64,000 nt of DNA from the NCBI GenBank assembly GCA_026985095.1, contig JALSQW010000012.1, positions 115,810-179,809 on the forward strand, written 5' to 3'. The stretch comes from Acidimicrobiia bacterium. GTDB lineage: Bacteria; Actinomycetota; Acidimicrobiia; Spongiisociales; UBA5794. The notes beneath the pieces are model-generated. The model saw only the letters and a program-made list of their open reading frames with translations. It was not told where the DNA came from and ran no database searches. The position numbers and the translations under genes are program-made. Below, in pieces: positions 16,028 through 62,297 of this stretch. Every line of letters begins with the position of its first letter. Position 1 is the stretch's first letter.

Positions 16028-16816
16028 CTATCTCCCTTTGAACTCGGGGGTCCGTTTCTCGACGAACGCCTTGATCCCCTCTTGGCGGTCCTCACTGTGG
16101 CGGAGAACCGCATGGCACATGGACTCGAAGGCCAGACCCGACTCCAGATCGACATCCTGGGATCGATCGACCGCGGCCTTGATACGCCCCAATGACAGCG
16201 GGGCGTTGCGGGCGATCTTGGCGGCGAGCTCATCGACGGCGCCGGCGAGCTCGCCGTCGGGGACGACCCGGTTGACCAGCCCCCACTCGAGGGCGGTGAC
16301 CGCCGAGATCCGCTCGCAGGTGAACATGAGCTCCTTGGCTCGGGCGGCGCCGATGAGTCTCGGCGTCCGCTGGGTGCCGCCGACCCCCGGCATCGACCCG
16401 ACCCTCGCCTCGGGGAAACCCAGCTGCGCTCCCTCGGTGGCGATCCTGAGGTCGCAGGCGAGGGCCATCTCGAGCCCACCGCCGAGGACGTAGCCGAACA
16501 CGGCAGCCACGATCGGCTTGTCGCTCGTCTCGAACCGTCGCTGCACGCGCCGGATCAGGTCGCCGAGCGGATCGTGGACGGTTCCCGCCTCGTACTCGGC
16601 GGCCCGCGCCTTGAGGTCGGCCCCGACACAGAACGCCTTCTCTCCCGCCGCCGTCAACACCAGCACCCGCAGCCCGGGATCGCCTTCGGCCTCCTCGACG
16701 ATCCGCTCGAGCGTCTCGAGCATGCCGACGGTGAGCGCGTTCATCGCTTCGGGTCGGTTCAGGGTGATGACCCCGACGCCGTCGCGGCGCTCCCATAGGA
16801 CCGGTTCGTCGCTCAC
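16028..16816 (-). CDS. Enoyl-CoA hydratase/isomerase (crotonase family)
   Basis: At 262 residues it has the normal crotonase length. Both hydratase glutamates are visible: E116 in [15 protein letters not shown] and E136 in [18 protein letters not shown]. The oxyanion-hole region is [10 protein letters not shown]. It should hydrate an enoyl-CoA made earlier in the pathway. It overlaps the class III CoA-transferase gene by 4 bp. A ring-opening BadI-like role is less likely, because BadI-type enzymes lack the paired glutamates. Confidence 0.87.
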
Positions 16817-24968: not shown

Positions 24969-25000
24969 GGGCATCGTCCCTCCGTGCTCGGGCACCGTCC

Positions 25001-27907: not shown

Positions 27908-27919
27908 GACCGGATGGTC
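27908..27919. promoter_or_regulatory. Imperfect operator GACCGGATGGTC before the Hcr genes
   Basis: One mismatch to GACCGNNCGGTC, located 43 bp before the Hcr small-subunit start and 20 bp after the PrpF-like gene. It may give the Hcr genes their own regulated promoter inside the operon. Confidence 0.4.
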
Positions 27920-27961
27920 GGGAGTCGGCGCTACGATGGCTCCACCATCGGGAGGAGCACC

Positions 27962-28429
27962 TTGGAGCCGGTGACCCTGCATGTCAACGGGATCGAGCGG
28001 CGACTGTTCGTCGCCTCCCATCGCACGCTCCTCGAGACCCTGCGGGAGGATCTCGGACTCACCGGCACCAAGCACGGCTGCGAGCTGGGCGAGTGCGGTG
28101 CCTGCACGGTGCTCGTCGACGGCGTCCCGATCCTGTCGTGCCTGGCCTTGACGCTCGACGCCGACGACGCGGAGATCGTCACGATCGAAGGCGTCGGTTC
28201 GGTCGGGAACCCCCACCCGCTCCAGCGCTCCTTCGCCGACCACGGCGCCGCCCAGTGCGGCTACTGCACCCCCGCGATGGTGCTCACGGCCAAGGCGCTC
28301 CTCGACCGGGTCCCGCATCCCTCGGACGCCGACATCACCGAGGCCATCGCCGGGAACATGTGCCGATGCACCGGCTATCTCCCGATCGTCCGTGCCATCG
28401 CCGCCGTCGCCGCCGGGGAAGCGCCATGA
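27962..28429 (+). CDS. hcrC: 4-Hydroxybenzoyl-CoA reductase gamma subunit ([2Fe-2S] subunit)
   Basis: A 155-residue small subunit of the xanthine oxidase family with two [2Fe-2S] clusters. C40, C45, C48 and C60 (GCELGECGACTVLVDGVPILSC) bind the plant-type cluster; C99, C102, C134 and C136 (QCGYC, MCRC) bind the second. TTG at 27962 is taken as start because GGAGGAG lies just upstream; GTG at 27971 is possible. It overlaps the large-subunit gene by 4 bp. It passes electrons between the flavin/[4Fe-4S] subunit and the molybdenum site. Confidence 0.88.
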   Translation: MEPVTLHVNGIERRLFVASHRTLLETLREDLGLTGTKHGCELGECGACTVLVDGVPILSCLALTLDADDAEIVTIEGVGSVGNPHPLQRSFADHGAAQCGYCTPAMVLTAKALLDRVPHPSDADITEAIAGNMCRCTGYLPIVRAIAAVAAGEAP

Positions 28430-30795
28430 GGATCGATCCTCACCACGGTGTCGTGGGCCGGGCGGCGCCCCGCACCGACGCCCTCGCCCAGGCGGCCGGG
28501 GGGCTCGTGTACGTCGACGATCTGTCCTATCCGGGGATGCTGCACGGATCGATCCTCCGCTCGCCCCATGCCCACGCCCGGATCGTGTCGATGGACGTGT
28601 CGGCGGCCGCCGAGCTCGACGGGGTCCACGCCGTCCTCACCGGAGCCGACCTGCCGGTCGCCTACGGGCTTCTCCCCGTCGCCCAGGACGAGCATGCCCT
28701 CGCCGTCGACAAGGTCCGCCAGGTGGGAGACGCCGTCGCCGCGGTCGCCGCCGACGACCCGGACATCGCCCAACGGGCGATCGAGCTCATCGACGTGGTC
28801 TACGAACCCCTTCCGGTGATCGCCACCATGGACGACGCCGTCGAGGTCGCCGACGAGCCGATCCACGGCGACGGACCACGCGACAACCGCCACCGCGAGG
28901 TGTCCCTCGATTTCGGTGACGTCGAGGCCGGCTTCGGACGCGCCGATCACCTCCGCGAGGACGTCTTCTTCTACCAGGGGAACAACCATGCCGCCCTCGA
29001 GCCGCATGGCGCGGTGGCGCTCGTCGAGGACGACGGTCGGCTGCGCCTGTGGTCGGCCACCCAGGTCCCCCACTACCTGCACCGCATCGTCGCCAAGGTG
29101 CTCGAGGTTCCCGAGCACCGGATCCGTGTGACCGCCAACCCGACCGGCGGAGGGTTCGGCGCCAAGACCGACGTCTTCGCCCACGAGCTGGTCGCCGCCA
29201 AGCTGGCGCTGGTCACCGGTCGACCCGTCAAGATCGTCCTCACCCGGGAAGAGGTCTTCTACGCTCACCGCGGACGTCACCCGGTGCTGATGTGGATCAA
29301 GACCGGGTTCACCGCCGACGGCGAGATCACCGCCATGTGGTTCAAGACCTACGTCGACGGCGGGGCCTACGGCTCCTACGGACCGGCGTCGTTGCTGTAC
29401 ACCGGGCAACTCCAGACGACGACGTACCGGATCCCGGCCTACCGGTTCCAGGGCGTCCGGTTCTTCACCAACAAGCCCGCGTGCGGACCCAAACGCGGCC
29501 ATGGGACGCCGCAACCGCGGTTCGGGCTCGAGGTGCATCTCGACCGGGCCGCCGACGATCTCGGGCTCGACCCGGTGACGATCCGGGAACGCAACCTCGT
29601 GCGACCCTTCTCGACGACGGTGAACCACCTTCGCATCACGAGCTGTGGGTTGGCCGAGTGCATCGACCGGGTCGTGGAGGCCTCGGACTTCCATGCCAAG
29701 CGCCGGAACCTGCCCTCGGGTCGCGGTGTCGGCCTGGCCGTCGGCGCCTACATGTCGGGCGCGGGGTTGCCCATCTACTTCAACGACATGCCCCAGTCCG
29801 AGGTGCTGCTCAAGGTGGACCGGGGCGGCCTGGTCACGGTCTACTCCATGGCCGCGGACTGCGGCCAGGGATCCACGACGATGCTGGCGACCGTCGTCGG
29901 CGAGGCGCTCGGCCTCGAACCGTCCGACCTGGCGGTGATCACCGCCGATACCGATCTGACGCCGATCGACCTCGGGTCGTACTCGTCGCGGGTCACGTTC
30001 ATGGCCGGGAACGCCGCCCTGGAGGCGGCGATGCGGCTGGCCGACCTGATCCTCACCGCCGTCGCCGACGAGCTGGAGCTCGACACCGACGACGTGACCC
30101 TCGGGCGCGGGGTGGTGGTCGCCGGTGATCGACGGGTTCCCTGGGTCGAGGCGGTACGGATGGCCGAAGCCCGCTGGGGGCTCCTCACCGCCGCCGGCTC
30201 CTACAAGCCGCCGAAGGACATCAGGGGCGACTACAAGGGCGCCGGTGTCGGCCCGTCGCCCGCCTACTCGTACTCGGCGTGCGTGGCCCAGGTGGACTGT
30301 GATCCCGAGACGGGGTTCGTCGGCGTCGACAAGATCTGGCTGGCGCACGACATCGGGCGGGCGATCAACCCGCTCCTGGTTCGCGGCCAGATCGAAGGCA
30401 GCGTCCACATGGCGCTCGGGGAGACCCTGATGGAGGAGCAGGCCTTCCGGGGAGCGCTCCACGACGGCCCCTCGCTCCTCGACTACAAGATCCCCACCGC
30501 CCTCGAGATGCCGCCGGTGGAGTCGATCCTCGTCGAGTCGATCGATCCGGAGGGACCCTTCGGCGCCAAGGAGGTGGGTCAGGGCCCGCTCCTGCCGGTG
30601 ATGCCGGCGGTGGCCAACGCCGTCCACGACGCCCTCGGGATCCGCGTCGATGAGGTCCCGCTGCGACCCGACAAGGTCCTGGCCGCCCTTCGCGACCTGG
30701 AGCGCGGCGGCGAGGGACGCTTCGGGCCGACGGAGCTCCCGCCCTACGAGTTCCGGCGCCCGCTGCCGGTCGATCCCCCACCGGAGCTGCGCTGA
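28426..30795 (+). CDS. hcrA: 4-Hydroxybenzoyl-CoA reductase alpha subunit (molybdenum cofactor)
   Basis: This 789-residue molybdopterin subunit has family motifs GGGFGAKTDVFAHE, the segment NKPACGPKRGHGTPQPRFGLE that is very like HcrA proteins, and GAKEVGQGPLLPV with the glutamate expected near the Mo centre. With the two partners it would remove the para-hydroxyl of 4-hydroxybenzoyl-CoA using low-potential electrons, giving benzoyl-CoA. Assignment to HcrA over xanthine or CO dehydrogenase rests on these motifs and on the special beta subunit behind it. A related aryl-CoA substrate is possible. Confidence 0.88.
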   Translation: MRIDPHHGVVGRAAPRTDALAQAAGGLVYVDDLSYPGMLHGSILRSPHAHARIVSMDVSAAAELDGVHAVLTGADLPVAYGLLPVAQDEHALAVDKVRQVGDAVAAVAADDPDIAQRAIELIDVVYEPLPVIATMDDAVEVADEPIHGDGPRDNRHREVSLDFGDVEAGFGRADHLREDVFFYQGNNHAALEPHGAVALVEDDGRLRLWSATQVPHYLHRIVAKVLEVPEHRIRVTANPTGGGFGAKTDVFAHELVAAKLALVTGRPVKIVLTREEVFYAHRGRHPVLMWIKTGFTADGEITAMWFKTYVDGGAYGSYGPASLLYTGQLQTTTYRIPAYRFQGVRFFTNKPACGPKRGHGTPQPRFGLEVHLDRAADDLGLDPVTIRERNLVRPFSTTVNHLRITSCGLAECIDRVVEASDFHAKRRNLPSGRGVGLAVGAYMSGAGLPIYFNDMPQSEVLLKVDRGGLVTVYSMAADCGQGSTTMLATVVGEALGLEPSDLAVITADTDLTPIDLGSYSSRVTFMAGNAALEAAMRLADLILTAVADELELDTDDVTLGRGVVVAGDRRVPWVEAVRMAEARWGLLTAAGSYKPPKDIRGDYKGAGVGPSPAYSYSACVAQVDCDPETGFVGVDKIWLAHDIGRAINPLLVRGQIEGSVHMALGETLMEEQAFRGALHDGPSLLDYKIPTALEMPPVESILVESIDPEGPFGAKEVGQGPLLPVMPAVANAVHDALGIRVDEVPLRPDKVLAALRDLERGGEGRFGPTELPPYEFRRPLPVDPPPELR

Positions 30796-31766
30796 TGCTG
30801 CGACTCCCGGTCGTGCGCCATGTCGCGCCGACGAGCCTCGACGAGGTCATCGAGCTGCTGGCGGGGGACGGGGCGATGCTCGCCGCCGGAGGGACCGACC
30901 TGGTCCCGAACCTGAAGCGGCGCCAGTATCCCGAGGCCAAGACGATCGTGTCGCTGCGCCGGGTCGCAGGCCTCGACGGGGTGAGCGTCGCCGACGGAGG
31001 GACGATCCGGATCGGGGCGCTCACGACCGTGGCTCGCCTCGCCACCGACGATGCGGTCCCCGAGGCCCTCCGGGAGGCCGCCGGGGCGGTGGCCTCCCCC
31101 CAGCTCCGCAACCGGGGCACCGTCGGCGGCAACCTCTGCGTCGACACCCGATGCCACTGGCTCAACGTTCCCGACACCTGGCGTCAGGCCGCCGAACCAT
31201 GTCTCAAGGCCGGCGGAGAGATGTGCTGGGTGGCGCCGGCCAAGAAGATCTGCTGGGCGGTGTCGTCGTCGGACCTGGCTCCGGCGATGATCGCCCTCGA
31301 CGCGTCGGTGCGACTGGTCGGGCCCGACGGGGAGCGCACCGCGCCGGTCGGCGAGCTGTACCGCGACGACGGCCTGGTTCATCTCGCCAAGGCGCCGAAC
31401 GAGATCCTCGTCGAGGTGATCGTGCCTGCTCCTCAGGGCCGTCGGGCCGGGTACCGCAAGCTCCGTCGCCGTGGGTCGATCGACTTCCCGATCCTCGGGG
31501 TCGCCGCGTCCTTCCGACTCGAGGACGGACGGGTGAACGACCCACGCCTGGTCCTCGGGGCGGTGGCGTCCTCACCGGTGCGGGTGACCGCCGCCGAGGA
31601 ACTCCTCGCGGGCCGTCCGCTCACCGATGCCCTGATCGCGGAGGCCGCCGAGCTGGCGGGCAAGTCCGTGCGCCCGATGTCCAACACCGACCTCACGTCG
31701 CGCTACCGCAAGCGGATGGTCCCGGTGTTCGTCCGCCGGCTCCTGGAGGACCTGGCAGCCGACTGA
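30795..31766 (+). CDS. hcrB: 4-Hydroxybenzoyl-CoA reductase beta subunit (FAD and extra [4Fe-4S] cluster)
   Basis: A 323-residue FAD-binding subunit. It carries the insertion that marks 4-hydroxybenzoyl-CoA reductase: cysteines C120, C136, C144 and C153 (RCHWLN, PCLKAGGEMCWVAP, KICWA). Their spacing of 16, 8 and 9 equals the Thauera HcrB cluster ligands as I recall them (122, 138, 146, 155). FAD motifs AAGGTDLVPNLK and NRGTVGGNL are present. The start codon overlaps the alpha stop (TGATG). This cluster lets the enzyme run in the reductive direction with ferredoxin. Confidence 0.92.
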   Translation: MLRLPVVRHVAPTSLDEVIELLAGDGAMLAAGGTDLVPNLKRRQYPEAKTIVSLRRVAGLDGVSVADGGTIRIGALTTVARLATDDAVPEALREAAGAVASPQLRNRGTVGGNLCVDTRCHWLNVPDTWRQAAEPCLKAGGEMCWVAPAKKICWAVSSSDLAPAMIALDASVRLVGPDGERTAPVGELYRDDGLVHLAKAPNEILVEVIVPAPQGRRAGYRKLRRRGSIDFPILGVAASFRLEDGRVNDPRLVLGAVASSPVRVTAAEELLAGRPLTDALIAEAAELAGKSVRPMSNTDLTSRYRKRMVPVFVRRLLEDLAAD

Positions 31767-49356: not shown

Positions 49357-50789
49357 CCGCCGACGTACTCCTCCCAGTGGTCGCGCACGAATCGCTCCAT
49401 CTCGGGATCGAGTCGGATCGGGATGGGCCGTTCCTCCTCCGGCCACTCGTACGGCGTCGTGCAGTCGATGATCAGCCGGTTGGTCAAGAACCGGGCCGAG
49501 CGCGGCAGCGACGGGTCGAGCGGGGTGGAGCGGCCGCGATGGAGCACCTGGCTGCCGAACCCGGGTTGGAACTTGAAGCTCATGGCGTACAGCACCTGGT
49601 CCATGTTCTCCGGATCGATGTCCTCGTCGACGACGATGACGGTCTTGAGTCCGTAGTTGCCGGTGGTCGACGCGAAGGCGGCGAGGGCCACCTGGGTCGA
49701 GTGCCCCGGGTACATGGGCCGCATGGAGATGATCGCCAGCATCCGTCCCGCCGACGGGGGCGGGCCGTAGACGGCCTTGATGCCCGGGATCTGGGCTCGT
49801 TTCAGGTCGTTCCACAACGATGCGGTCCGGTTGACGCCCATCACCATGTGGGTGTCGGTGGTGGGTCGTCCCACCGTCGTGGACCACAGGATCGGCTCGG
49901 TGCGGTGGGTGATGGCCTGGACGTGCATGAAGTACGTCGGCTCGTCACCTTTGCCCGAGTAGTGCCCGGTGTACTCCCCGAAGGGGCCTTCGGCGATCCG
50001 CTCGCCCGGCATCATGACACCTTCGACGACCCACTCGGCCGCCGCCGGCACGAGCAGGTCGCTCGTCTCGGCCTCGACGACCTTCACCGGCGCGCCGCGG
50101 AGGGCTCCGGCGACGTCGTACTCGGATTCCTCGAGACCGAACAGCGTGCTCCCACACATGAACAGGGTCGGGTCCGCGCCCGAGACGTAGGCGATGGGCA
50201 TGGGGATGCCGGCTTCCTCGTAGGCGCGGTGGTCGATCTCGCCGTCCTTGCCCTTGATCATGTAGACGCAGAGCTTGTCGTCGTCCTTGATCATGGCCCG
50301 GTAGGTGCCGAGGTTGAGCCGTCCGGTCTCGAGGTTGCGGGTGATGGCGTACCCGGCGGTCCCGAAGTAGCGACCGCCGTCGAGGGGGTAGAACCACGGC
50401 GCCGGGATCTTGGACAGCTTGGCGTCGTCGCCGACGAGCACGTTCTCCTTCGTCGGGGCATCGGATCGATCCACCTCGACCGGGGGCACCATGTTGCCGT
50501 GGATCCGTTCGACCCACTCCTGGGACAGATGCATGAGACTGGTGTCGGGAGGCATCTCGAGCGCCAACGCGAGGCGCTCCCTGGCGGTCAGCGCGCTCGT
50601 GAACACCCGGTGACCCGGGTAGTCCTTGATGTGCTCGAACAGCAGTGCCTTGCCGCCGCCTTGGCGTTCCTCGTTCACCTTGGCCACGTGGCTCAGTTCG
50701 AGGTTCCAGTCGACCTCGCGCTTGACCCGGAGGAGCTCTCCCTCCTGGTCGAGTCGGTCGAGGAAGCTGCGTAGGTCGTCGTAGGGCAT
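49353..50789 (-). CDS. UbiD-family prenylated-FMN decarboxylase
   Basis: This 478-residue UbiD-type enzyme has the cofactor-binding and catalytic segment GERIAEGPFGEYTGHYSG, whose glutamate residues act with an arginine (YAITRNLETGRLNLGTYR region). It also has MIKGKDGEIDHRAYEEAGIPMPIAYVSGADP. Such enzymes decarboxylate, or in reverse carboxylate, aromatic and alpha,beta-unsaturated acids. The UbiX-like gene nearby would supply prenyl-FMN. The IclR gene upstream is likely its regulator. An aromatic acid substrate fits the region. Confidence 0.9.
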   Translation of the reverse strand: MPYDDLRSFLDRLDQEGELLRVKREVDWNLELSHVAKVNEERQGGGKALLFEHIKDYPGHRVFTSALTARERLALALEMPPDTSLMHLSQEWVERIHGNMVPPVEVDRSDAPTKENVLVGDDAKLSKIPAPWFYPLDGGRYFGTAGYAITRNLETGRLNLGTYRAMIKDDDKLCVYMIKGKDGEIDHRAYEEAGIPMPIAYVSGADPTLFMCGSTLFGLEESEYDVAGALRGAPVKVVEAETSDLLVPAAAEWVVEGVMMPGERIAEGPFGEYTGHYSGKGDEPTYFMHVQAITHRTEPILWSTTVGRPTTDTHMVMGVNRTASLWNDLKRAQIPGIKAVYGPPPSAGRMLAIISMRPMYPGHSTQVALAAFASTTGNYGLKTVIVVDEDIDPENMDQVLYAMSFKFQPGFGSQVLHRGRSTPLDPSLPRSARFLTNRLIIDCTTPYEWPEEERPIPIRLDPEMERFVRDHWEEYVGG

Positions 50790-50811
50790 GGTCGCTCTCC
50801 TCCTTGGTCGT

Positions 50812-51573
50812 TCACAGATCGGCGCCGAGTCGCCGTGAGATCTCGTCCGCCGCCTCCAGGGCGGCCTTGATCGCCACCTCGCCGGGTTGGTCCTCACTGC
50901 GGGCAGTGAACCCGACGATGGTGAGGCCGGCCACGACCCGGTCGTCGACCCCCCGCAGCGGCACCGAGACGGCCCGGACTCCGAGCAGGTACTCCTCCCG
51001 GTCGTCGACCGCGTACCCCTGGCGACGGACCTCGGCCAGCTCGGCCTCGAGCTCGTCGGGATCGGTGATGGTCGCCGGGGTGAACGCCTCGAGGCCGTGG
51101 CGGGCGATGAGTCGGTCGACGTCCGAGGAGGGCATCCAGGCCAGGAACACCCGTCCGAAGGACCCCGCGGAGAACGGGATGTGCTGACCGATGGTGGCCG
51201 ACACATGGAGCCCGCCGATGGGATCGACCTTGTCGATGACGACGATGTGGTCGTCGTGGAAGGTGCCGAGGAGCACGGTCTTGCGGGTCTCGGCGACGAG
51301 GGTCTCCATGAACGGCCGGGCGATGCGACGGACGTCGGTCTGCTCGTGGGCGAGATGCCCGAGCCGGATGAGGGCGGGTCCGAGGCGGTACCGGAGCGTG
51401 GTCGGGTCGCGGAGGAGGAACCGGTCGGCGACGAGGGTGGCGAGGATCCCATGCGCCGTCGACTTGTTGAGGTCGAGGTGGTCGACGAGCTCCGACAGCG
51501 ACCACTCGTCGCGGGTCTCGAAGGCCCGCAGGATGCCGATCGCTCGCTCGACCGCGGACACCTTGCCGGCCAT
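50812..51573 (-). CDS. IclR family regulator
   Basis: A 253-residue IclR protein with an N-terminal winged helix (SAVERAIGILRAFETRDEWSLSELVDHLDLNKSTAHGILATL) and a C-terminal effector domain including RVFLAWMPSSDVDRLI. It sits 22 bp before the UbiD gene on the same strand and probably controls it. IclR regulators often respond to aromatic acids. A candidate site lies at 51635. Confidence 0.88.
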   Translation of the reverse strand: MAGKVSAVERAIGILRAFETRDEWSLSELVDHLDLNKSTAHGILATLVADRFLLRDPTTLRYRLGPALIRLGHLAHEQTDVRRIARPFMETLVAETRKTVLLGTFHDDHIVVIDKVDPIGGLHVSATIGQHIPFSAGSFGRVFLAWMPSSDVDRLIARHGLEAFTPATITDPDELEAELAEVRRQGYAVDDREEYLLGVRAVSVPLRGVDDRVVAGLTIVGFTARSEDQPGEVAIKAALEAADEISRRLGADL

Positions 51574-51634
51574 CAGGCTCCCATCGTGATGCGGCCGAAG
51601 GATGGCCGCTGGGTTGTTCGCATCACAGAACTCC

Positions 51635-51650
51635 GTTCGCTATATAGAAC
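51635..51650. promoter_or_regulatory. Probable IclR operator, GTTCGCTATATAGAAC
   Basis: The 16-bp element has GTTC and GAAC ends around a CTATATAG palindrome and lies 62 bp before the IclR start. It is the only AT-rich symmetric element in this stretch (51574-51703), so it may also contain the promoter. Confidence 0.5.
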
Positions 51651-51703
51651 ACCTCGAACGTAGCCCACCGCCCGAGGTGCTGTCAAGGGACGACCGGGTT
51701 CGG

Positions 51704-52267
51704 CTACCCCCCGGACCAGCGATCGGTCAGGTCGTTGGCGAGTCCGAGGAGGTCGAGGACCCGGCCCACCGTGTGGTCGATGATCTGGGCCACCGACGTG
51801 GGGCGGTGATAGAGCGCGGGGACCGGGGGCATCACGATGGCGCCGATCTCGATCGCCTGGACGAGGAGGCGAGCATGCCCGAGATGCAGCGGCGTCTCAC
51901 GGGGCAACAGGACGAGCGGGCGCCGCTCCTTGAGCGTCACGTCGGCCGCTCGCAGGAGCAGGTTGGCCGAGTAGGAGTTGGCGATCCCCGACAGCGTCTT
52001 CATCGAGCACGGGGCCACGACCATCCCGGCCGTACGGAACGAACCGGACGAGACCGAGGCGGCGATGTCGTCGATCGGATGTACCACGTCGGCGAGCGCC
52101 TCGACGGCGGACACGTCGAGGTCCGTCTCGAGCTCGATGGTCCGTCGGGCTCCTCCGCTCACGATGAGATGGGTCTCGATCTCGCGGCGCTCGCGCAGCA
52201 CCTCCAGGACCCGGATCCCGTACGCCACCCCGCTGGCTCCGGCGAGCCCGACGACGATGCGTTCCAC
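51704..52267 (-). CDS. ubiX: UbiX-like flavin prenyltransferase
   Basis: A 187-residue flavoprotein of the UbiX/Pad1 family. It begins IVVGLAGASGVAYGIRVLEVL and has the flavin and prenyl-phosphate segments VVAPCSMKTLSGIANSYSANLLLRAADVTLKERRPLVLLPRETPLH. It attaches a dimethylallyl group to FMN to make the UbiD cofactor. The GTG start at 52267 has a strong GGGAGGG site; the frame upstream is longer but lacks one. It stands in the same direction as IclR-UbiD, separated by a promoter region. Confidence 0.92.
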   Translation of the reverse strand: MERIVVGLAGASGVAYGIRVLEVLRERREIETHLIVSGGARRTIELETDLDVSAVEALADVVHPIDDIAASVSSGSFRTAGMVVAPCSMKTLSGIANSYSANLLLRAADVTLKERRPLVLLPRETPLHLGHARLLVQAIEIGAIVMPPVPALYHRPTSVAQIIDHTVGRVLDLLGLANDLTDRWSGG

Positions 52268-53661: not shown

Positions 53662-54969
53662 TCATGCCTGGACGAAGAACCGTTTGGCCTTGAGTTCGAA
53701 GCGAGGCAGGGTGCCTCGGGGGACGGGAACGACCTCGGGCCGTAGGGCCAGGTCGCGGGCGAACCCCTCCGCCACCACGCCGGCGACACCGGCGGCGTCA
53801 CGGCCCTCGGCGCACTCGATCTCGATGAGGAGGTGGGCCATCTCACGCCGACGGGTGACCGTCACCCGGTACTCGTCGATCCCGTCGTGCCGCCGCACCA
53901 ACTCCTCCACCGCCGACGGGAACACGTTCACCCCCCGGACCACCACCATGTCGTCGGCGCGCCCGATGACGCCACCGGCGAGACGCAGGAACGTACGACC
54001 GCACGGACACGGCTCCGGATCGATCTCGACGAGATCACCGGTGCGGTACCGGATGACGGGGAAGCCGACCCGCCCGAGGTTGGTGAGCACGAGCTCTCCG
54101 CGCTCTCCCGGACCCACCGGTCGCTCGCCCCCCGGCTCCACCACCTCGGCGACGAACTCGGACTCGATCACGTGGACGCTCCCGGGCTGGGGTGCGCACT
54201 CGAAGCTGAAGGCGCCCACCTCCGAGGCCCCGGCATGGTCGTAGGCCCGGACTCCCCAGGTCCGCTCGATCCGGGCCTTGGTGGCGGGCACGCTGGCCCC
54301 GGGCTCGCCGGCGTGGACGGTGGTCCGCACACCGAGACGGGCCGGGTCGATGCCCTCCTCCCGGGCCACCTCGGCGAGGCGGAGCGCGTAGGTGGGCGTG
54401 CAGCACATGGCGGTGACACCCAAGCGCTCGATCAGGGCGAGCCGCTGCACGGAGGTCTGCCCACCGCCGGGGATCATCATCGCCCCGATCCGGCTCGCTC
54501 CCCCGACCGCCGCCCAGAAGCCGATGAACGGACCGAACGAGAAGGGCAGGAGCAGACGGTCCGCGGCGGTGAGCCCGGCCCCGGCGAGCACGAACCCCCA
54601 GCATCGTCCCCACCAGTCCCAGCTCTCGGCGGTGTCGTAGACTCGCAGCGGCTCGCCGGTCGTACCCGAGGTCTGATGGAAGCGCGTGTAGGCCTCCTCT
54701 CCGAACGTGCAGTTGCTCGACAGCGGAGCCCCCTCGTGCTGGGCGGCGACCAGCTCGACCTTCGTGGTGAAGGGCAGGCGGGCCAGGTCGTCCAGGTCGC
54801 GCAGATCCTCGGGACCGAAGCCGGTCGCTCCGAGCTTGTCCGTGTAGAAACGGTTCCGCCCCCAGATCTCGCCCAGGAGCCTCGAGAGCCGGTCGAGCTG
54901 GAGGGCACGGAGACGCTCCGGCGGTGCGGTCTCCACTGCCTCGTCGAAGAACCCGGGTCGCTCGCTCAT
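53662..54969 (-). CDS. Phenylacetate-CoA ligase family (PaaK-type) aryl-CoA ligase
   Basis: The 435-residue adenylate-forming enzyme has the PaaK length and motifs: HQTSGTTGEPLRVYDT (ATP loop), YDHAGASEVGAFSFEC, RYRTGDLVEIDPEPCPCGRTFLR and the hinge region IGRADDMVVVRGVNVFPSAVEE. It should form an acyl-AMP and then an aryl-CoA thioester. Its promoter region faces the Bcr operon, so it is a natural candidate for activating the aromatic acid that enters that pathway. Which acid it uses cannot be told. Confidence 0.88.
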   Translation of the reverse strand: MSERPGFFDEAVETAPPERLRALQLDRLSRLLGEIWGRNRFYTDKLGATGFGPEDLRDLDDLARLPFTTKVELVAAQHEGAPLSSNCTFGEEAYTRFHQTSGTTGEPLRVYDTAESWDWWGRCWGFVLAGAGLTAADRLLLPFSFGPFIGFWAAVGGASRIGAMMIPGGGQTSVQRLALIERLGVTAMCCTPTYALRLAEVAREEGIDPARLGVRTTVHAGEPGASVPATKARIERTWGVRAYDHAGASEVGAFSFECAPQPGSVHVIESEFVAEVVEPGGERPVGPGERGELVLTNLGRVGFPVIRYRTGDLVEIDPEPCPCGRTFLRLAGGVIGRADDMVVVRGVNVFPSAVEELVRRHDGIDEYRVTVTRRREMAHLLIEIECAEGRDAAGVAGVVAEGFARDLALRPEVVPVPRGTLPRFELKAKRFFVQA

Positions 54970-55127: not shown

Positions 55128-56294
55128 ATGACCGCCGAGACCGTCGAGAGCATCGTCGACGAGACCCGCACCATCATCGAGGACCCGTCCTACCCGATGG
55201 CTCGCCGATGGCTCGAGGAGCATCCCGGCGGGAAGGTCCTCGGCCACTTCCAGGTCTACTTCCCTGAGGAGCTGGCCCACGCCGCGGGCGTCCTTCCCCT
55301 CAAGGTCGCCGGGTTCGACACCGCCTTGCCCATCCGCAAGGCCGACGCCCATCTCGCCGCCTTCGTGTGCTCCATCGCACGCAGCGCCCTCGAGCTGGTC
55401 ATGTCCGGGACGTTCGATCTCCTCGACATGTTCGTGTTCCCCCCGATCTGCGACGTCGCCCGCCACTCGTGTGCGGTGTGGGCACGGAACTTCGAGGACG
55501 TCGACTGTCAGATCATCTACCTCCCCCACAACGCGGCCTCACCGGCAGCGGTTCCCTACCTCACCGGGGAGTACCGGCGCATCCTCCGCGAGATCGAGGA
55601 GGTCGCCTCCACCCGCGTCTCCGACGAGGCCCTGCGCCGGTCGATCGACGTGTTCAACGAGAACCGTCGCCTCCTTCGGGAGCTGTACCGGATCAAGCGC
55701 GACACCCCATGGAACCTGTCCGCGGTCGAGGCCTACATCCTGACCCGGGCGGCCGGGGTCATGCCCCGTGAGCAGCACAACGACATCCTGCGCCGGGCCC
55801 TGGCCGCCATCGAACGACGCGACGCCAAACCCCAGGACCGCATCAAGGTCGTCTTCTCCGGCGGGTTCTGCGAGCAGCCGCCCCTCGACCTCATCTCGGT
55901 GCTCCAGGACGCCTGCTACATCGTCGACGACGACTTCATGGTGGGGCTCCGCTGGATCCTCGAGGACGTCGCCGCCGACGGCGACCCGCTCGAAGCCCTC
56001 GCCGACGCCTACCTCAACCACTCCGATTACAGCCCCGTCCAACACGACCCCCGCAAACCCAAAGAGGACATGCTGCTGCACAAGATCGAGGCGGCGGGCG
56101 CCGAAGCAGCGATCATCGCCGCGGCCAAGATGTGCGAACCGGGGCTCGAGGAGCAGGTCGGCTACAGCCAACGGCTCTACGACGTCGGGATCCCCCATCT
56201 CGTCATGGAGTTCGAGGAGAAGTCCAACACGTTCGAACAGACCCGCATGGAGGTCGAGACCTTCGCCGAGTCGCTGCTGTTCGAGTTCGCCTGA
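55128..56294 (+). CDS. bcrC: Benzoyl-CoA reductase catalytic subunit, BcrC/BzdN type
   Basis: A 388-residue member of the 2-hydroxyglutaryl-CoA dehydratase D-component family (PF06050). Segments typical of BcrC/BadD/BzdN are GKVLGHFQVYFPEELAHAAG, FPPICDVARHSCAVW, SGGFCEQPPLDLI, DDDFMVGLRWILEDV and AAKMCEPGLEEQV. Cysteines at 81, 108, 115, 248, 263 and 336 include likely [4Fe-4S] ligands. It is the first gene of an operon with a second D-component and two ATPases, the composition of class I benzoyl-CoA reductase. The related dehydratases are the main alternative. Confidence 0.85.
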   Translation: MTAETVESIVDETRTIIEDPSYPMARRWLEEHPGGKVLGHFQVYFPEELAHAAGVLPLKVAGFDTALPIRKADAHLAAFVCSIARSALELVMSGTFDLLDMFVFPPICDVARHSCAVWARNFEDVDCQIIYLPHNAASPAAVPYLTGEYRRILREIEEVASTRVSDEALRRSIDVFNENRRLLRELYRIKRDTPWNLSAVEAYILTRAAGVMPREQHNDILRRALAAIERRDAKPQDRIKVVFSGGFCEQPPLDLISVLQDACYIVDDDFMVGLRWILEDVAADGDPLEALADAYLNHSDYSPVQHDPRKPKEDMLLHKIEAAGAEAAIIAAAKMCEPGLEEQVGYSQRLYDVGIPHLVMEFEEKSNTFEQTRMEVETFAESLLFEFA

Positions 56295-56309: not shown

Positions 56310-57632
56310 ATGACATCCCCTACCAAGCACGAACGCCGCATCGTGATCCGGCCGCCCCTGTCGCTGGCCGGTACGACCCGCGACGAGAACCGCACGCTCA
56401 TCCGAGACTGGTGGGCCGACCTCGACGCGGCCGAAAACGAAGGCCGGCCCGTCGCCAATGTGTTCGTGATGGGATCGATGGCGGAGATCCTGCGCACCTT
56501 CGACATGCCCATCTCGTTCCCCGAGATGACGTCGCTGCAGACCGCGGTCCGGGGCCGATCGTTGGAGTACATCACCACCGCGGAGGACGCCGGCTACTCC
56601 CCCGACATCTGCGGCTACGTCAAGGCCGATGTGGGGGTCCACCTCCAAGGCGGAGACCATCCGATGGGTCACCTCCCCAAGCCCTCGTTGGTGGTGGCGA
56701 CGAACCTGTGCAACACCTACATCAAGTGGGGCGAGATCTGGGAGCGGATGTACGAGTGCCCGGTCTTCGTCTTCGACATCCCCGGCTGGCGCGGCAGCGG
56801 ATTCGAGACGAAGAAGGGTTCAGGCACGTTCCGGGACGACGTCCGCTACGTCGAGGCCCAGATCCATGAGCTGATCGCCCTCGCCGAGGAGGTCACGGGC
56901 AGGAGGTTCGACATCGACGAGTTCCGCGAGACCCTCGGCCACGTCAACGAGCTGTCCCGCCTCTTCCAGGAGGTGCTCGAGCTCAACCAGCATCGGCCTG
57001 CGCCGTTCAACGCGCTGACCGAAGGCATCAACCTGATGGGCATCGTCAACGCCTATCGGGGAAGCCCGAAGGGCACCCACTTCCTCGAGACCGCCAAGGC
57101 CGAGTTCGAAGAGCGCATCGCCAACGGCGTCGGGGCGGTGCCCGACGAACGCTTCCGCCTGCTCCTGGTCGGGACCGCCTGCTACTCCAACTTCCGGGAC
57201 TTCGCCGGGCTCTTCGAGGACTGGCAGGGAGTGTTCGCCCATTCCGACTACATGTCGTTCGCCGGCGGGGCCCTCGATCGAGGCATCGTCTACGACCTCG
57301 ATCGACCCTTCGAGTCGATGGCCGAACAGATGGTCCTCAGCACCCAAGAGGCCATGGGCGGCATGTTCTGGGGTCAGGACTGGCTCACCGAGGTCGTCCG
57401 CGACTGGGACGTCGACGGCATCGTCTTCCACGGCGTGAAGTCATGTCGCACCGTCTCGACCGGCCTCCCCGACGAACGGGAATGGCTGCTCCGCCACCGG
57501 GACATCCCCGGCCTGTTCATCCAGTCCGATCTCGTCGATCCCCGGCTGTGGTCCGAGGCCCAGCTCAAGAACCGGATCGACGCGTTCTTCGAGTCACTCG
57601 AGAGTCGCCGGGCCGCCGGCGCGAGGAGGTAG
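56310..57632 (+). CDS. bcrB: Benzoyl-CoA reductase catalytic subunit, BcrB/BzdO type
   Basis: The 440-residue second D-component protein matches the length of BcrB/BzdO. Typical parts are ICGYVKADVGVHLQGGDHPMGHLPKPSLVV (C101), NLCNTYIKWGEIWERMYECPVFVFDIPG (C134) and GVKSCRTVSTGLPDEREWLL near the C-terminus. With BcrC it should hold the [4Fe-4S] clusters and the aromatic CoA ester. It is 15 bp behind BcrC and followed at 4 bp by the first ATPase gene. Confidence 0.85.
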   Translation: MTSPTKHERRIVIRPPLSLAGTTRDENRTLIRDWWADLDAAENEGRPVANVFVMGSMAEILRTFDMPISFPEMTSLQTAVRGRSLEYITTAEDAGYSPDICGYVKADVGVHLQGGDHPMGHLPKPSLVVATNLCNTYIKWGEIWERMYECPVFVFDIPGWRGSGFETKKGSGTFRDDVRYVEAQIHELIALAEEVTGRRFDIDEFRETLGHVNELSRLFQEVLELNQHRPAPFNALTEGINLMGIVNAYRGSPKGTHFLETAKAEFEERIANGVGAVPDERFRLLLVGTACYSNFRDFAGLFEDWQGVFAHSDYMSFAGGALDRGIVYDLDRPFESMAEQMVLSTQEAMGGMFWGQDWLTEVVRDWDVDGIVFHGVKSCRTVSTGLPDEREWLLRHRDIPGLFIQSDLVDPRLWSEAQLKNRIDAFFESLESRRAAGARR

Positions 57633-57636
57633 CACG

Positions 57637-58443
57637 ATGCTCGTCGCAGGCGTCGACGTCGGATCCACCCAGACGAAAGCCGTCGTCATGAACGAGAAGC
57701 GCGAGGTCCTCGGCAAAGGTCTCGTCCCCACCGGCGCCCGACTCAACGAGGCCGGTCAGGCGGCCTTCGAGGAGGCCCTGGCCCGGGCCGGCGCCAAGGA
57801 GTCCGAGGTCGGGTTCGTGGTCGGAACCGGATATGGACGCTATCGGGTCGAGTTCGGCGACGCCCAGGTGACCGAGATCTCCTGCCACGCCCGTGGCGCC
57901 GTGTTCCTGTTCCCGAACACCCGCACGGTGCTCGACATCGGCGGGCAGGACACGAAGGGCATCAAGGTCGGCCCCGACGGCCAGGTCATCGACTTCAACA
58001 TGAACGACAAGTGCGCTGCCGGCACCGGGCGGTTCCTCGGGGCGGCGTCCGAGGCGCTCGAGGTACCCCTTCCCGACCTGGGCGCCTTGGCGCTGTCGGG
58101 ACGGAACCCGGTCAAGATGACCACCACCTGCACGGTGTTCGCCGAATCGGAGATCCTCGGTTGGCTGGCGAAGGGTCGCCATGTCGAGGACGTCGTCGCC
58201 GGTGTCCACAAGGCGATCGCCTCCCGAAGCGTCGGGCTCCTGCGACGGGTCGGGATCGAACCGGAGGTCACCTTCACCGGCGGGGTCTCCAACAACGAGG
58301 CCATGGTCGAGCTCATCTCGGAGCTCGTCGGGATGCCGGTGAACACCAGCTCGGAGACCCACCACTGCGGGGCCCTGGGGGCGGCGTTGTTCGCCCTCGA
58401 ACAGATCCTGACCGGAGCGATGACCGAAAGGCAGACCGTATGA
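57637..58443 (+). CDS. BcrAD/BadFG-type ATPase subunit 1 of benzoyl-CoA reductase
   Basis: A 268-residue acetate/sugar kinase-fold ATPase. It has the phosphate-binding GVDVGSTQTKAVV, the DIGGQDTKGIK loop, and C126 (NDKCAAGTGRFL) and C165 (TTTCTVFAESE), which in this family bind a bridging [4Fe-4S] cluster. It would use ATP to drive low-potential electrons into the catalytic subunits. Its size is that of the short BzdP/BzdQ or BcrD type. It overlaps the next ATPase by 4 bp. Confidence 0.87.
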   Translation: MLVAGVDVGSTQTKAVVMNEKREVLGKGLVPTGARLNEAGQAAFEEALARAGAKESEVGFVVGTGYGRYRVEFGDAQVTEISCHARGAVFLFPNTRTVLDIGGQDTKGIKVGPDGQVIDFNMNDKCAAGTGRFLGAASEALEVPLPDLGALALSGRNPVKMTTTCTVFAESEILGWLAKGRHVEDVVAGVHKAIASRSVGLLRRVGIEPEVTFTGGVSNNEAMVELISELVGMPVNTSSETHHCGALGAALFALEQILTGAMTERQTV

Positions 58444-59258
58444 GCGACATCACCGCAGGTATCGACCTGGGCTCGACCTACACCAAGGCGGTCCTCGTCG
58501 CGGCCGATGGTACGATCCTGGGCCGCCACGAAGGCAAGACCGGGTTCCATTTCGCCAAGGCGGCGGATCGGGCGCTGCGCGAGTCGTTGGACGACGCCGG
58601 CGTCGACCGTGACGACGTCACCTACGTCGCGACGACCGGCTTCGGGCGGTACGCCGCGGACCTGCGGGACCTGGCCATCACCGAGCTGACCTGCCACGCC
58701 TACGCGGTGCATGTGTTGTTCCCCGACGTCCGGACGGTCCTCGATGTCGGCGGCCAGCTCGTCAAGGCGATCCGGATGGACGACAAGGGTCGGGTCCAGG
58801 GCTTCCGCCTCAACGACAAGTGCGCCGCAGGGTCGGGTGCGTTCCTGGAGAAGACCGTCCGCTACCTCGGCCACGACGTGAACGCCATCACCGGCTACTC
58901 GGAGAAGGCGACCAAGCCGGTGAGCGTGTCCTCGGTGTGCGCCGTGTTCGCCGAGTCCGAGATCATCAATCACCTCGCCGCCGGCGAGAAGGAGGAGGAC
59001 GTCACGGCCGGGGCCGTCGTGGCGTTGGCCGGACGGGCCGCTCAGGTCCTCAAGCGGGTCAAGCCCGAGCCGCCGTGCGCGTTGACGGGTGGGCTCACCC
59101 GGGTGCCGCTGGTCCGTCGACAGCTCGAAGAGATCCTCGGCTTCGAGTTCCGCGTGCCCGACCGGGACCTGGGGGCCTTCGCCGGTGCCTACGGAGCAGG
59201 CCTCCTGGCCCACCAGCGGCTCCGCAAGGTGCGGGCCACCGAACCCGTCGCGGTCTGA
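58440..59258 (+). CDS. BcrAD/BadFG-type ATPase subunit 2 of benzoyl-CoA reductase
   Basis: A 272-residue homologue of the ATPase before it, with GIDLGSTYTKAVL, C128 (NDKCAAGSGAFL) and C167 (SSVCAVFAESE). The ATP loop reads VGGQLVKAIR; the usual aspartate of GGQD is leucine here. Having two non-identical ATPases argues for a heteromeric benzoyl-CoA reductase, because the dehydratase activators are single homodimeric proteins. It ends 1 bp before the next start. Confidence 0.86.
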   Translation: MSDITAGIDLGSTYTKAVLVAADGTILGRHEGKTGFHFAKAADRALRESLDDAGVDRDDVTYVATTGFGRYAADLRDLAITELTCHAYAVHVLFPDVRTVLDVGGQLVKAIRMDDKGRVQGFRLNDKCAAGSGAFLEKTVRYLGHDVNAITGYSEKATKPVSVSSVCAVFAESEIINHLAAGEKEEDVTAGAVVALAGRAAQVLKRVKPEPPCALTGGLTRVPLVRRQLEEILGFEFRVPDRDLGAFAGAYGAGLLAHQRLRKVRATEPVAV

Positions 59259-59259
59259 G

Positions 59260-60111
59260 ATGCCGGCCCGGTTCCTCGACCCCGAGGAGGCCGTCGCGCT
59301 CGTCGAGCCAGGCTCGACGGTGGCCGTCGGCGGCATGCAGCTCACCGCTGCTCCGATGACCCTCGTGCGCGGCCTCATCCGGCGCCGGGTGCGGATCGGT
59401 CGGCTGGTGACCAGCCCGTCGGCGTCGCTGCAGGCCGAGCTCCCGATCGCCGCCGGGCTCGTCGACGAGATCGTCAGCCCCTATGTCGGGTTCGAGCATC
59501 TCGGCCTGGCTCCGGCCTTCCGGCGGGCGGCCGAGACCGGAACGCTGCGGATCCTCGAGATCGACGAGGGGTCGCTCACCCATGCGCTCCATGCCGGGGC
59601 CGGCGGGATCCCCTTCGTGCCGTGCCCTCCTGGCGTCGACCTCACCGACATCCCGAGGGTCGATCCCGAGCTGTTCCGGCGAGTCGTCGATCCCTTCACG
59701 GGCTCCGAGCACTGGGCCGTGCCGGCCATCCGACCCGACACGACGCTGCTCGCCGGCGCGGTCGCCGACGAACGGGGCAATGTCGCCCTCGATCGGTTCC
59801 CGTTCACCGACCGCGAGATGGCGCTCGCCGCCCGACGGTTGATCGTCGAGGTCGAAGAGGTCGTCCCGGCCGGGGCGCTCGCCGACCGCGCACCGGGAAC
59901 GACCCTGCCTTCGTTCCTCGTCGACGCCGTGGTCGTCGCCCCGGGCGGCTGCCACCCCACCGAGTACCCGGAGCGGTACGGCCGGGACGAAGCAGCGATC
60001 GTCGACTATCTGCAGCTGGCCAAGGACCCCGCCGGACTGGAGGACCGGGTGGCGGAGCTCGTCGCCGAGAGCGAGGATGCCTATCGAGCACGTCGGGGAG
60101 GGACCTCGTGA
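59260..60111 (+). CDS. CoA-transferase-fold alpha subunit, IpdA/GctA-like
   Basis: The 283-residue protein belongs to class I CoA-transferase alpha subunits (GSTVAVGGMQLTAAPMTLVRGLIR, SPYVGFEHLGLAPAFRRAAETG, E100 and E103 in LEIDEGSLTHALHAGAGGIPFVP). It is close in size and character to IpdA, which with IpdB hydrolyses a ring C-C bond in steroid degradation. In the partner the transferase glutamate is replaced by glycine. It could hydrolytically open the reduced ring from the Bcr reaction, or be a true CoA-transferase. Confidence 0.75.
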   Translation: MPARFLDPEEAVALVEPGSTVAVGGMQLTAAPMTLVRGLIRRRVRIGRLVTSPSASLQAELPIAAGLVDEIVSPYVGFEHLGLAPAFRRAAETGTLRILEIDEGSLTHALHAGAGGIPFVPCPPGVDLTDIPRVDPELFRRVVDPFTGSEHWAVPAIRPDTTLLAGAVADERGNVALDRFPFTDREMALAARRLIVEVEEVVPAGALADRAPGTTLPSFLVDAVVVAPGGCHPTEYPERYGRDEAAIVDYLQLAKDPAGLEDRVAELVAESEDAYRARRGGTS

Positions 60112-60866
60112 CCGGCTGGAGCACGTCCGAGTTGATGGCGATCGTGATGGCCCGCGCCTTCGACGACGGTGAGGTGGTGGTGATGGGGGCGGTCCCGGCG
60201 CTCCCGATGGCAGCCTGCCGCCTCGCCCGTGCCACCCACGCCCCGAACCTGGAGTTCATCGTCGGGGGAAGCGGCACGGTCAGCCCGGAGCCCGACCGGC
60301 TCCCCGCGTCGTCCTGCGGTGGCGACCTCGCACCTGCCGCCACCACCTTGGCCCTACCCGACGTCGTCCTCCTCGAGGGGCGCGGCGACGCGTTCGACGT
60401 CTTCTGCGCCGGCGGCCTCCAGATCGACGCCCACGGCAACTGCAACCTGATCGTCGTCGGCGACTGGGAGCGCCCGAAGCTCAGGGGTCCAGGCACCGTC
60501 GGGCTCCCGTTCCTGCCCAACACCAGGCGCTCGATCATCTACACCCAGAGCCACACGCCGCGGACCTTCGTCGAGAAGGTCGACTTCGTCGGCGGGCCCG
60601 GACATCCTTCGGGACCCGAACAGGCGCGACCGTACCGCAAGGAAGGCCCGACGCTGGTGGTCACTCCCTTGGCGACCTTCGACTTCGACGCGACCGGCCG
60701 GATGCGCCTCTCCACCGTGCATCCGGGCGTGACCGTGGACGAGGTGCTGGCGGCCACCGGCTTCATCCCGGCACCCGGACCCGGGCCGACCGTCACCCCG
60801 GAACCCACCGACGAGGAGCTGGGGACCCTCCGGGCCATCGATCCCGACGGAGTACTGCGAAGATAA
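60108..60866 (+). CDS. CoA-transferase-fold beta subunit, IpdB/GctB-like, lacking the catalytic Glu
   Basis: The 252-residue partner starts with GTG in a GTGA overlap. Residues 51-56 read IVGGSG where class I transferases have ESG; GctB uses Glu54 and this protein has Gly54. Further parts resemble IpdB: AGGLQIDAHGNCN, FVEKVDFVGGPGH, ATFDFDATGRMRLSTVHPGVTVDE. IpdAB is known to cleave a cyclohexenone-type ring of a CoA ester without a transferase glutamate. A ring-opening role here is inferred, not shown. Confidence 0.75.
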   Translation: MTGWSTSELMAIVMARAFDDGEVVVMGAVPALPMAACRLARATHAPNLEFIVGGSGTVSPEPDRLPASSCGGDLAPAATTLALPDVVLLEGRGDAFDVFCAGGLQIDAHGNCNLIVVGDWERPKLRGPGTVGLPFLPNTRRSIIYTQSHTPRTFVEKVDFVGGPGHPSGPEQARPYRKEGPTLVVTPLATFDFDATGRMRLSTVHPGVTVDEVLAATGFIPAPGPGPTVTPEPTDEELGTLRAIDPDGVLRR

Positions 60867-60875
60867 GGAGACACC

Positions 60876-61619
60876 ATGGAGTTCGAGAACGAGATCGTCC
60901 TGGTCACCGGCGGCGCCAGCGGCATCGGTGCAGCCACGGTCGCCGCCTTCGCCGCGGAGGGGGCCACGGTCGGGATCTGCGACGTCGACGTCGACGGCGC
61001 CGACGCCGTCGCCCGGCAACATGCGAACGCCTTCGTCGTAGAGATGGACGTCACCGACGCGGAGGGAGTGAAGGCCGCGGTCGACGACATCGCCGCCGAG
61101 CACGGTCGGATCGACGTGCTGGCCAACGTGGCCGGGTGGGACCGGGTCATGGCGTTCGTCGACACCACCCCGGAGTTCTGGGACCGGGTCATCGCCATCA
61201 ACTACCGCGGGATCCTTGCCACCTGCCACGCGGTGCTCCCGCACATGATCGAGGCCGGCGGCGGCGCCATCGTGAACACGGCGTCGGAGGCCGGGCGGAA
61301 CGGGTCGTCGGGTGAGGCCGTCTACTCGGGGACCAAAGGCGGCGTCATCGCCTTCTCCAAGGCCGTCGCCCGAGAGGTGTCCCGTCACGGGATCCGCGTC
61401 AACGTCGTGGCCCCCGGCCTCATCGAGACGCCCCTGCTGCGAGGGATGATCGACGAGGGTCACGGGCGTCTCATGGAGGCCATCGTCAAGGCGACCCCCA
61501 TCCGTCGCTTCGGTCGCCCCGAGGAGGTCGCCGACGCCATCGTCTTCCTCGCCTCGGACCGGGCGAGCTTCGTCACCGGTCAGACCCTCGGAGTGAGTGG
61601 CGGGTTGGTGATGGGCTGA
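60876..61619 (+). CDS. SDR dehydrogenase, BadH-like (2-hydroxycyclohexanecarboxyl-CoA dehydrogenase)
   Basis: A 247-residue SDR with TGGASGIGAATVAAFA, the active set S137, Y150 and K154, and stretches that closely match BadH of Rhodopseudomonas palustris as I recall it: AGWDRVMAFVDTTPEFW, GSSGEAVYSGTKGG and TGQTLGVSGGLVMG. BadH oxidises the alicyclic hydroxy-CoA before ring opening. A GATAAGGAGACACC site precedes the ATG. Its position behind Bcr and IpdAB-like genes supports this role. Confidence 0.8.
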   Translation: MEFENEIVLVTGGASGIGAATVAAFAAEGATVGICDVDVDGADAVARQHANAFVVEMDVTDAEGVKAAVDDIAAEHGRIDVLANVAGWDRVMAFVDTTPEFWDRVIAINYRGILATCHAVLPHMIEAGGGAIVNTASEAGRNGSSGEAVYSGTKGGVIAFSKAVAREVSRHGIRVNVVAPGLIETPLLRGMIDEGHGRLMEAIVKATPIRRFGRPEEVADAIVFLASDRASFVTGQTLGVSGGLVMG

Positions 61620-61679: not shown

Positions 61680-62297
61680 ATGAGCACCGACGACACACTG
61701 GTCGACGTCAACGACCTCACCGCGAAACAGGAGCATCTGGTCCGCACCGGCTACCAGGTGTTCTCCGAACAAGGCATCGACGGGGCGTCGCTCCAGGAGA
61801 TCGCCGACCGGGCCGAGGTGTCCAAAGGGCTGATCCTCTATCACTTCGGTTCCAAGGAGGCCTTCGCCCTGGCGACGATGGAGTGGGCACTCACTCGCAC
61901 CGCCGAGAGGATCCGTCGCTCCCTGGCGACCGCAGCCTCCCCCGAGGAGCGGATCTCGGCGATGCTGCGAGCCATCTTCCACAACGCCGCCGCCAACCGG
62001 CGGTTCTACCTGACCTACCTCGACCTGCTGACCCGCGCGGCCCGGGTGGACAGCTTCGGGCAGGTGAACGACACCTTCCGGACCATCGTCAACTCGCTCT
62101 ACCGCGACGTGGTCGCCCAGGGTGTCGAGGAGGGCGTCTTCGACGTCGGTGACCTCGACGAGGCCGCCGAGGCGGTGCGGGCCATCATCGACGGCACCTT
62201 CCTCCTGTGGCTCCAGGAGACGCACTGGCGCCGGGAACACGCCGCCTACCGGGACCGCTGCCGGCGTGCCCTGCTGCGCTACCTGGGCTGCCGCTGA
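61680..62297 (+). CDS. TetR family regulator, probable master of the aromatic regulon
   Basis: A 205-residue TetR protein with helix-turn-helix at about residues 37-60 (LQEIADRAEVSKGLILYHFGSKEAF). The start at 61680 is chosen over 61650 because GGAGGG lies upstream at 61662. It has a matching operator directly in front and follows the Bcr operon, so it is the best candidate to bind GACCGNNCGGTC at all sites. An aryl-CoA effector is likely but not shown. Confidence 0.86.
   Translation: MSTDDTLVDVNDLTAKQEHLVRTGYQVFSEQGIDGASLQEIADRAEVSKGLILYHFGSKEAFALATMEWALTRTAERIRRSLATAASPEERISAMLRAIFHNAAANRRFYLTYLDLLTRAARVDSFGQVNDTFRTIVNSLYRDVVAQGVEEGVFDVGDLDEAAEAVRAIIDGTFLLWLQETHWRREHAAYRDRCRRALLRYLGCR

Follow-up and report, generated by a model that had tools for sequence, protein, structure and literature searches.

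An IpdAB-like gene pair lacking the transferase glutamate as a candidate ring-opening enzyme behind a benzoyl-CoA reductase in Acidimicrobiia

Which enzyme opens the ring once benzoyl-CoA has been reduced is the question raised by a 64,000-nucleotide stretch of contig JALSQW010000012.1 from an Acidimicrobiia bacterium (the window), in which an operon for an ATP-dependent (class I) benzoyl-CoA reductase (Bcr) is followed directly by two genes resembling the alpha and beta subunits of class I CoA-transferases. The ring intermediate cleaved by the crotonase-fold hydrolase Oah (BamA) is the ring of the IpdAB substrate minus its substituents. IpdAB, which hydrolyzes COCHEA-CoA when steroid ring C is broken down (structures 6co6, 6co9, and 6coj from R. 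jostii and 6con from M. tuberculosis), cleaves this substituted form by a retro-aldol reaction. Considering gene context and active-site residues, we regard it as rather probable that the pair acts as a CoA-thioester hydrolase that opens the ring, using IpdAB-type chemistry outside the IpdAB family and replacing Oah/BamA after benzoyl-CoA reduction; the substrate and reaction are predicted from the same two lines of evidence. The established benzoyl-CoA pathway runs through the Dch/Had/Oah sequence (PMC8163825), and bamA/oah is used as a general marker of anaerobic aromatic ring fission (PMC3794298). In addition, bcrBC, boxBC, and bbsA have been reported from marine-sediment actinobacteria of UBA5794, in passages that do not discuss a ring-opening enzyme (PMC12008989), and our literature search found no paper treating IpdAB together with benzoyl-CoA.

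An earlier note, made from the letters of the window, had described the two genes as a class I CoA-transferase-like pair in one operon with the reductase, and this description held: PF01144 (CoA_trans, gathering score 23) was found in both alpha (74 bits) and beta (47.5 bits), and AlphaFold models of the separate subunits (pLDDT 93 for alpha and 86 for beta) showed the CoA-transferase fold, with Foldseek TM scores of ∼0.8 to 0.9 to glutaconate CoA-transferase GctAB (1poi), IpdAB (6co6), and the decarboxylase AibAB (5mzw). The pair shares fold and subunit arrangement with GctAB but, unlike it, is devoid of the catalytic glutamate of the ESG motif. In a 64-row alignment, beta Gly53 (counted from the GTG at 60108) occupied the column of the ESG glutamate in all true transferase rows and was aligned with IpdB Gly57, the residue to which GctB Glu54 corresponds (PMC5380842), in line with the substitution that the note had read from beta. 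A larger alignment moved this glycine by one column; since Gly53 and Gly54 are both invariant in the clade to which the pair belongs, and the neighboring stretch contains no Glu at all that could take the transferase position, the loss is independent of the alignment register. The GTG is the most likely start of beta because relatives keep a W(S/T)xxELMA motif upstream of the ATG at 60135. Glu103 of alpha, singled out earlier as a candidate active-site residue, fell in the column of IpdA Glu105 (Ala in the IpdAB E105A structure 6coj) and was invariant in the clade and common to IpdA, while this column holds Gly in AibA and His or Gln in ESG transferases. These statements on the IpdAB active site are based on PMC5380842 and the titles of PDB entries. 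A simple class I CoA-transferase was ruled out, as the catalytic ESG glutamate is Gly in every clade member. Accordingly, a CoA-transferase activating benzoate or a related acid, which would suit both the fold and the location in an aromatic catabolic cluster, is very improbable, considering also that several clusters have genes of the benzoate-CoA ligase type close by and that a CtfAB E46S mutant (9cry) is inactive, as its entry title states.

Phylogenetic analysis of concatenated alpha and beta sequences from 64 pairs placed the pair in its own clade (SH-aLRT 99), apart from IpdAB proper, AibAB, and ESG transferases, with members in Actinomycetota, Chloroflexota, Dormibacterota, Bacillota, and Thermoplasmata. 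The pair combines the CoA-transferase fold with the residue pattern of IpdAB (Gly in place of the transferase Glu, together with the alpha Glu) but stands in a separate clade at ∼30% identity, and therefore is not an IpdAB ortholog. A true steroid IpdAB was ruled out by tree and gene context, given that IpdAB proper of the window's class formed a distinct clade and that no HIP/steroid catabolic gene context was encountered, the surroundings consisting of Bcr/Bzd, short-chain dehydrogenase (SDR), aryl-CoA ligase, and 4-hydroxybenzoyl-CoA-reductase-like genes. Moreover, the clade is set apart from IpdAB by characteristic residues (alpha Met26, Thr51-Ser52-Pro53, and Cys231; beta Glu90 and Cys112), as expected if its substrate is different. 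Thus, the resemblance to IpdB reported in the note was borne out for the residue pattern and not for orthology. Genomes G140, G186, G247, G266, and G290 encode as many as six alpha paralogs each, which fall into several further clades lacking the transferase Glu; in one clade (L081 and L095) the alpha Glu is replaced by Cys. These are possibly other ring or C-C hydrolases. A more distant pair with 45% beta identity and Ala at the alpha Glu position occurred in Hyphomicrobiales (L161 and L171; Xanthobacter tagetidis), surrounded by crotonases and acyl-CoA dehydrogenases in a genome without Bcr.

Oah, although similar in proposed role and pathway position, belongs to the unrelated crotonase fold and did not exceed its cut-off in any searched genome carrying the pair. 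The survey of the window's class covered 296 genomes, with the pair counted as an alpha-clade match of ≥248 bits and Oah at the TIGR03200 cut-off of 464 bits, and a BcrC relative was present in 21 genomes. Among these, 11 carried Oah without the pair, 7 carried the pair without Oah, and none had both; the remaining 3 had neither (G034, G152, and G274), with bcr contigs shorter than 5 kb in G152 and G274 and 83% completeness in G274. Genomes with window-type Bcr kept alpha, beta, and SDR directly behind bcrD wherever the contig extended that far, while most other Bcr genomes had canonical Oah (≥546 bits) with a Dch-like crotonase nearby, and the L051 cluster additionally contained Had over its cut-off. 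In the window's own genome, the best TIGR03200 match reached 74 of 464 bits.

To describe the distribution beyond the class, 84,980 species genomes were scanned with the beta alignment, which returned 80 named loci. Oah exceeded the curated cut-off in none of the 37 genomes with relatives of the pair, whereas a BcrC/BzdN homolog was present in 32 of them and in 29 of 32 genomes of the clade proper; the link to benzoyl-CoA reduction drawn in the note holds. Besides Acidimicrobiia, the order bcrCBAD-(crotonase)-alpha-beta-SDR was kept in Chloroflexi (L131), Dormibacterota (L135), Thermoleophilia (L138), and further groups. Acididesulfobacillus acetoxydans is a sulfate reducer in culture whose chromosome is complete; here, the pair clustered with BzdN (504/454 bits, score/cut-off), BzdO (722/449 bits), and benzoate-CoA ligase (662/375 bits), and all four BzdO-bearing genomes among the 83 of its class had the pair and no Oah. 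The pair family is found with Bcr and with Bzd clusters and therefore partners two reductase types. In the fourth BzdO genome (G409, Bacillota), the order was thiolase, hydratase-type crotonase, Had-like dehydrogenase (TIGR03201 as best family, 284/339 bits), fused alpha-beta, activases, BzdO, BzdN, the crotonase ECH287, thiolase, and SDR; the pair, beside Dch-type and Had-type genes, occupies the place expected for Oah. The fusion is a single 596-amino-acid reading frame (L230:14874-16529) within this BzdNO benzoate cluster. Upstream of the A. acetoxydans pair (L132:466-8890) are CCG-domain (HdrB-like), HdrA, FlpD, and NfnB-like genes, reminiscent of the electron supply of class II reductases. 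Genes resembling BoxB and BoxC (aerobic epoxidation of benzoyl-CoA), so named from their sequence, adjoined Bcr and the pair in G287 (L044:5577-8659) and were joined to the pair also in L134, L145, L151, and L153; the G287 loci are poorer in G+C than the window (69%), and their genes are longest-open-reading-frame calls.

In the proposed route, Bcr would convert benzoyl-CoA to cyclohexadiene-carboxyl-CoA, a hydratase would add water (the candidate being the two-glutamate hydratase of the window, which is kept in the window lineage), and the SDR, which accompanies the pair in most relatives and is the candidate for the oxidation preceding ring opening, would oxidize the ring alcohol. Alpha Glu103 would then add water at C2, and the C1-C2 bond would be cleaved by a retro-aldol reaction as in IpdAB. 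The product, predicted from the structure of MOODA-CoA, would be 3,7-dioxoheptanoyl-CoA, ready for thiolysis, in place of the 3-hydroxypimeloyl-CoA formed by Oah. The BadH/BadI route of Rhodopseudomonas palustris offers a parallel to the BadH-like SDR beside the ring-opening candidate, but BadI is a crotonase, and of the 14 crotonase matches examined in the window's genome, just one, which is MenB-like, was of ring-hydrolase type. If the proposed ring opening is true, the benzoyl-CoA pathway has a non-crotonase ring-opening step, IpdAB chemistry extends beyond steroids, and benzoyl-CoA-reducing lineages of Acidimicrobiia, Chloroflexi, Dormibacterota, and Bacillota have been missed by bamA-based surveys. 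That these lineages share a second type of anaerobic benzoyl-CoA pathway, spanning at least five phyla, with a CoA-transferase-fold retro-aldol ring opener and the aldehyde 3,7-dioxoheptanoyl-CoA instead of 3-hydroxypimeloyl-CoA, is a tentative extension, less likely than not.

Several observations weigh against ring opening by the pair. Both sequence and fold put it as near to AibAB as to IpdAB: alpha found AibA (3e-33) ahead of IpdA (9e-27) and GctA (2e-13) in single-sequence PDB searches, beta was equidistant from AibB, IpdB, and GctB, and AibA was the top match of alpha by fold as well. An AibAB-type decarboxylase, acting for instance on glutaconyl-CoA in the lower pathway, is an alternative that the earlier note did not consider; AibAB (3-methylglutaconate complex 5mzz) likewise has the class I CoA-transferase fold and lacks the Glu, and any benzoyl-CoA pathway needs glutaryl-CoA breakdown. 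We consider it quite unlikely, given that Cys56 of AibB and the glycine of AibA are replaced by Gly53 and Glu103, that AibAB stands in a different gene context, that a late step would not be expected to displace Oah, yet the two never occurred in one genome, and that the window's genome would then be left without a ring hydrolase. A literature search on 3-methylglutaconyl-CoA decarboxylase found no papers.

Moreover, most relatives also carry ECH287, a crotonase with Oah (TIGR03200, 194 to 196 bits) and BadI (TIGR03210) as best families, which retains one of the two hydratase glutamates and in several operons is encoded between bcrD and alpha. In its genomes, ECH287 may act as the hydratase, or it may carry out ring opening jointly with the pair or by itself. 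The ring-opening role advanced in the note gained from the occurrence of the pair in genomes without Oah/BamA, as predicted, and lost from these Oah/BadI-like crotonases in many relatives. If ECH287 opens the ring, the pair could take the place of Dch and hydrate cyclohexa-1,5-diene-1-carboxyl-CoA, as water addition by alpha Glu103 would correspond to the initial half of what IpdAB catalyzes. This division of labor seems unlikely, however: no ECH287 ortholog was present in five genomes of the window lineage, whose best matches (134 to 152 bits versus 524 to 565 bits for orthologs) are two-glutamate hydratases, and in G409 the adjoining hydratase-type crotonase and Had homolog give hydration another candidate. 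The window lineage lacks both an ECH287 ortholog and Oah, and a MenB-like crotonase was the sole one of ring-hydrolase type among the 14 matches examined in the window's genome; if this lineage opens the ring at all, no linked candidate other than the pair was found. Many ECH287 members (L044:18144-18995 and relatives) also have a C-terminal zinc-ribbon-like CxxC...CGxCG stretch.

Published tests, furthermore, revealed no growth of A. acetoxydans on benzoate (PMC8982180), as might be expected if plain benzoyl-CoA is not a substrate of the divergent reductase and the pair opens a different ring, such as 2-oxocyclohexane-1-carboxyl-CoA (the place of BadI) or an analogue bearing substituents or hydroxyl groups. 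The window SDR being closest to BadH, the Bcr scores below equivalog cut-offs, and the clade's own residue signature relative to IpdAB are consistent with such a substrate; the Bzd subunits and benzoate-CoA ligase over cut-offs in the A. acetoxydans cluster, and the BoxB/BoxC-like genes of G287, whose route starts from benzoyl-CoA, make it a doubtful one. Ring opening after benzoyl-CoA reduction, the reading preferred here, must also accommodate three clade metagenome-assembled genomes without Bcr (G307, G310, and G313; at the G310/G173 locus the contig begins just before the cluster) and G288, which has window-type Bcr and Oah with no pair detected, on a bcr contig ending inside bcrA. In addition, the Oah/pair label needs only two changes on the BcrB+BcrC tree, one of them due to G288; the exclusion statistics are therefore not independent, and the Fisher test (p = 0.001, kinship ignored) is not taken at face value.

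The window operon has the order bcrCBAD-alpha-beta-SDR, followed by a TetR regulator that probably controls it (Table 1), and is tightly packed: alpha begins one base past the end of bcrD, the alpha and beta genes share 4 bases, and 9 bases separate beta from the SDR gene. Subunit composition and order of the reductase fit BcrCBAD, and it is read as a divergent Bcr because its scores, such as those of BcrC and BcrB, fall below the BcrA to BcrD equivalog cut-offs.

Table 1. Features of the window discussed in the text (scores in bits; G numbers denote genomes)
Feature	Coordinates	Strand	Basis
bcrC-like subunit, ATP-dependent (class I) benzoyl-CoA reductase	55128..56294	+	TIGR02263 best family, 302, cut-off 421
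bcrB-like subunit	56310..57632	+	TIGR02260 212, cut-off 487 not reached
bcrA-like activase/ATPase subunit	57637..58443	+	TIGR00241 270 (cut-off 125); TIGR02259 213
bcrD-like activase/ATPase subunit	58440..59258	+	TIGR00241 207; TIGR02261 135
Alpha subunit of IpdAB-like pair, candidate catalytic Glu103	59260..60111	+	PF01144; PDB matches AibA, IpdA, GctA
Beta subunit of pair, Gly53/Gly54 at transferase Glu position	60108..60866	+	PF01144
Short-chain dehydrogenase (SDR), BadH-like	60876..61619	+	TIGR03206 (BadH) best family, 255, cut-off 431
TetR-family regulator	61680..62297	+	TetR-type matches; beside SDR also in G129, G070, G090, G237
PaaK-like aryl-CoA ligase, divergent from operon	53662..54969	-	TIGR02155 228; adjoins bcrC in G129, G054, G070, G090
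Enoyl-CoA hydratase, both hydratase glutamates	16028..16816	-	Hydratase families; orthologs 86-95% identical in four window-lineage genomes
4-Hydroxybenzoyl-CoA-reductase-like three-subunit enzyme	27914..31766	+	Large subunit TIGR03194 814, cut-off 995; near bcr in G054, G070, G237

Other genes of the window may also serve aromatic catabolism. The 4-hydroxybenzoyl-CoA-reductase-like enzyme would feed the pathway, and a UbiD-family decarboxylase (phenylphosphate-carboxylase-beta-like, 410/469 bits), encoded with a UbiX-type prenyltransferase and an IclR-type regulator at 49353-52267, likely supplies a phenolic acid to it. Positions 13518-15270 and 18629-24974 encode a HacAB-like hydratase, a homocitrate/isopropylmalate-synthase-like enzyme, and Ior/Kor-type 2-oxoacid:ferredoxin oxidoreductases, possibly a 2-oxoacid module providing Bcr with reduced ferredoxin; much of this set also accompanies the pair in G287, G173, and L156.
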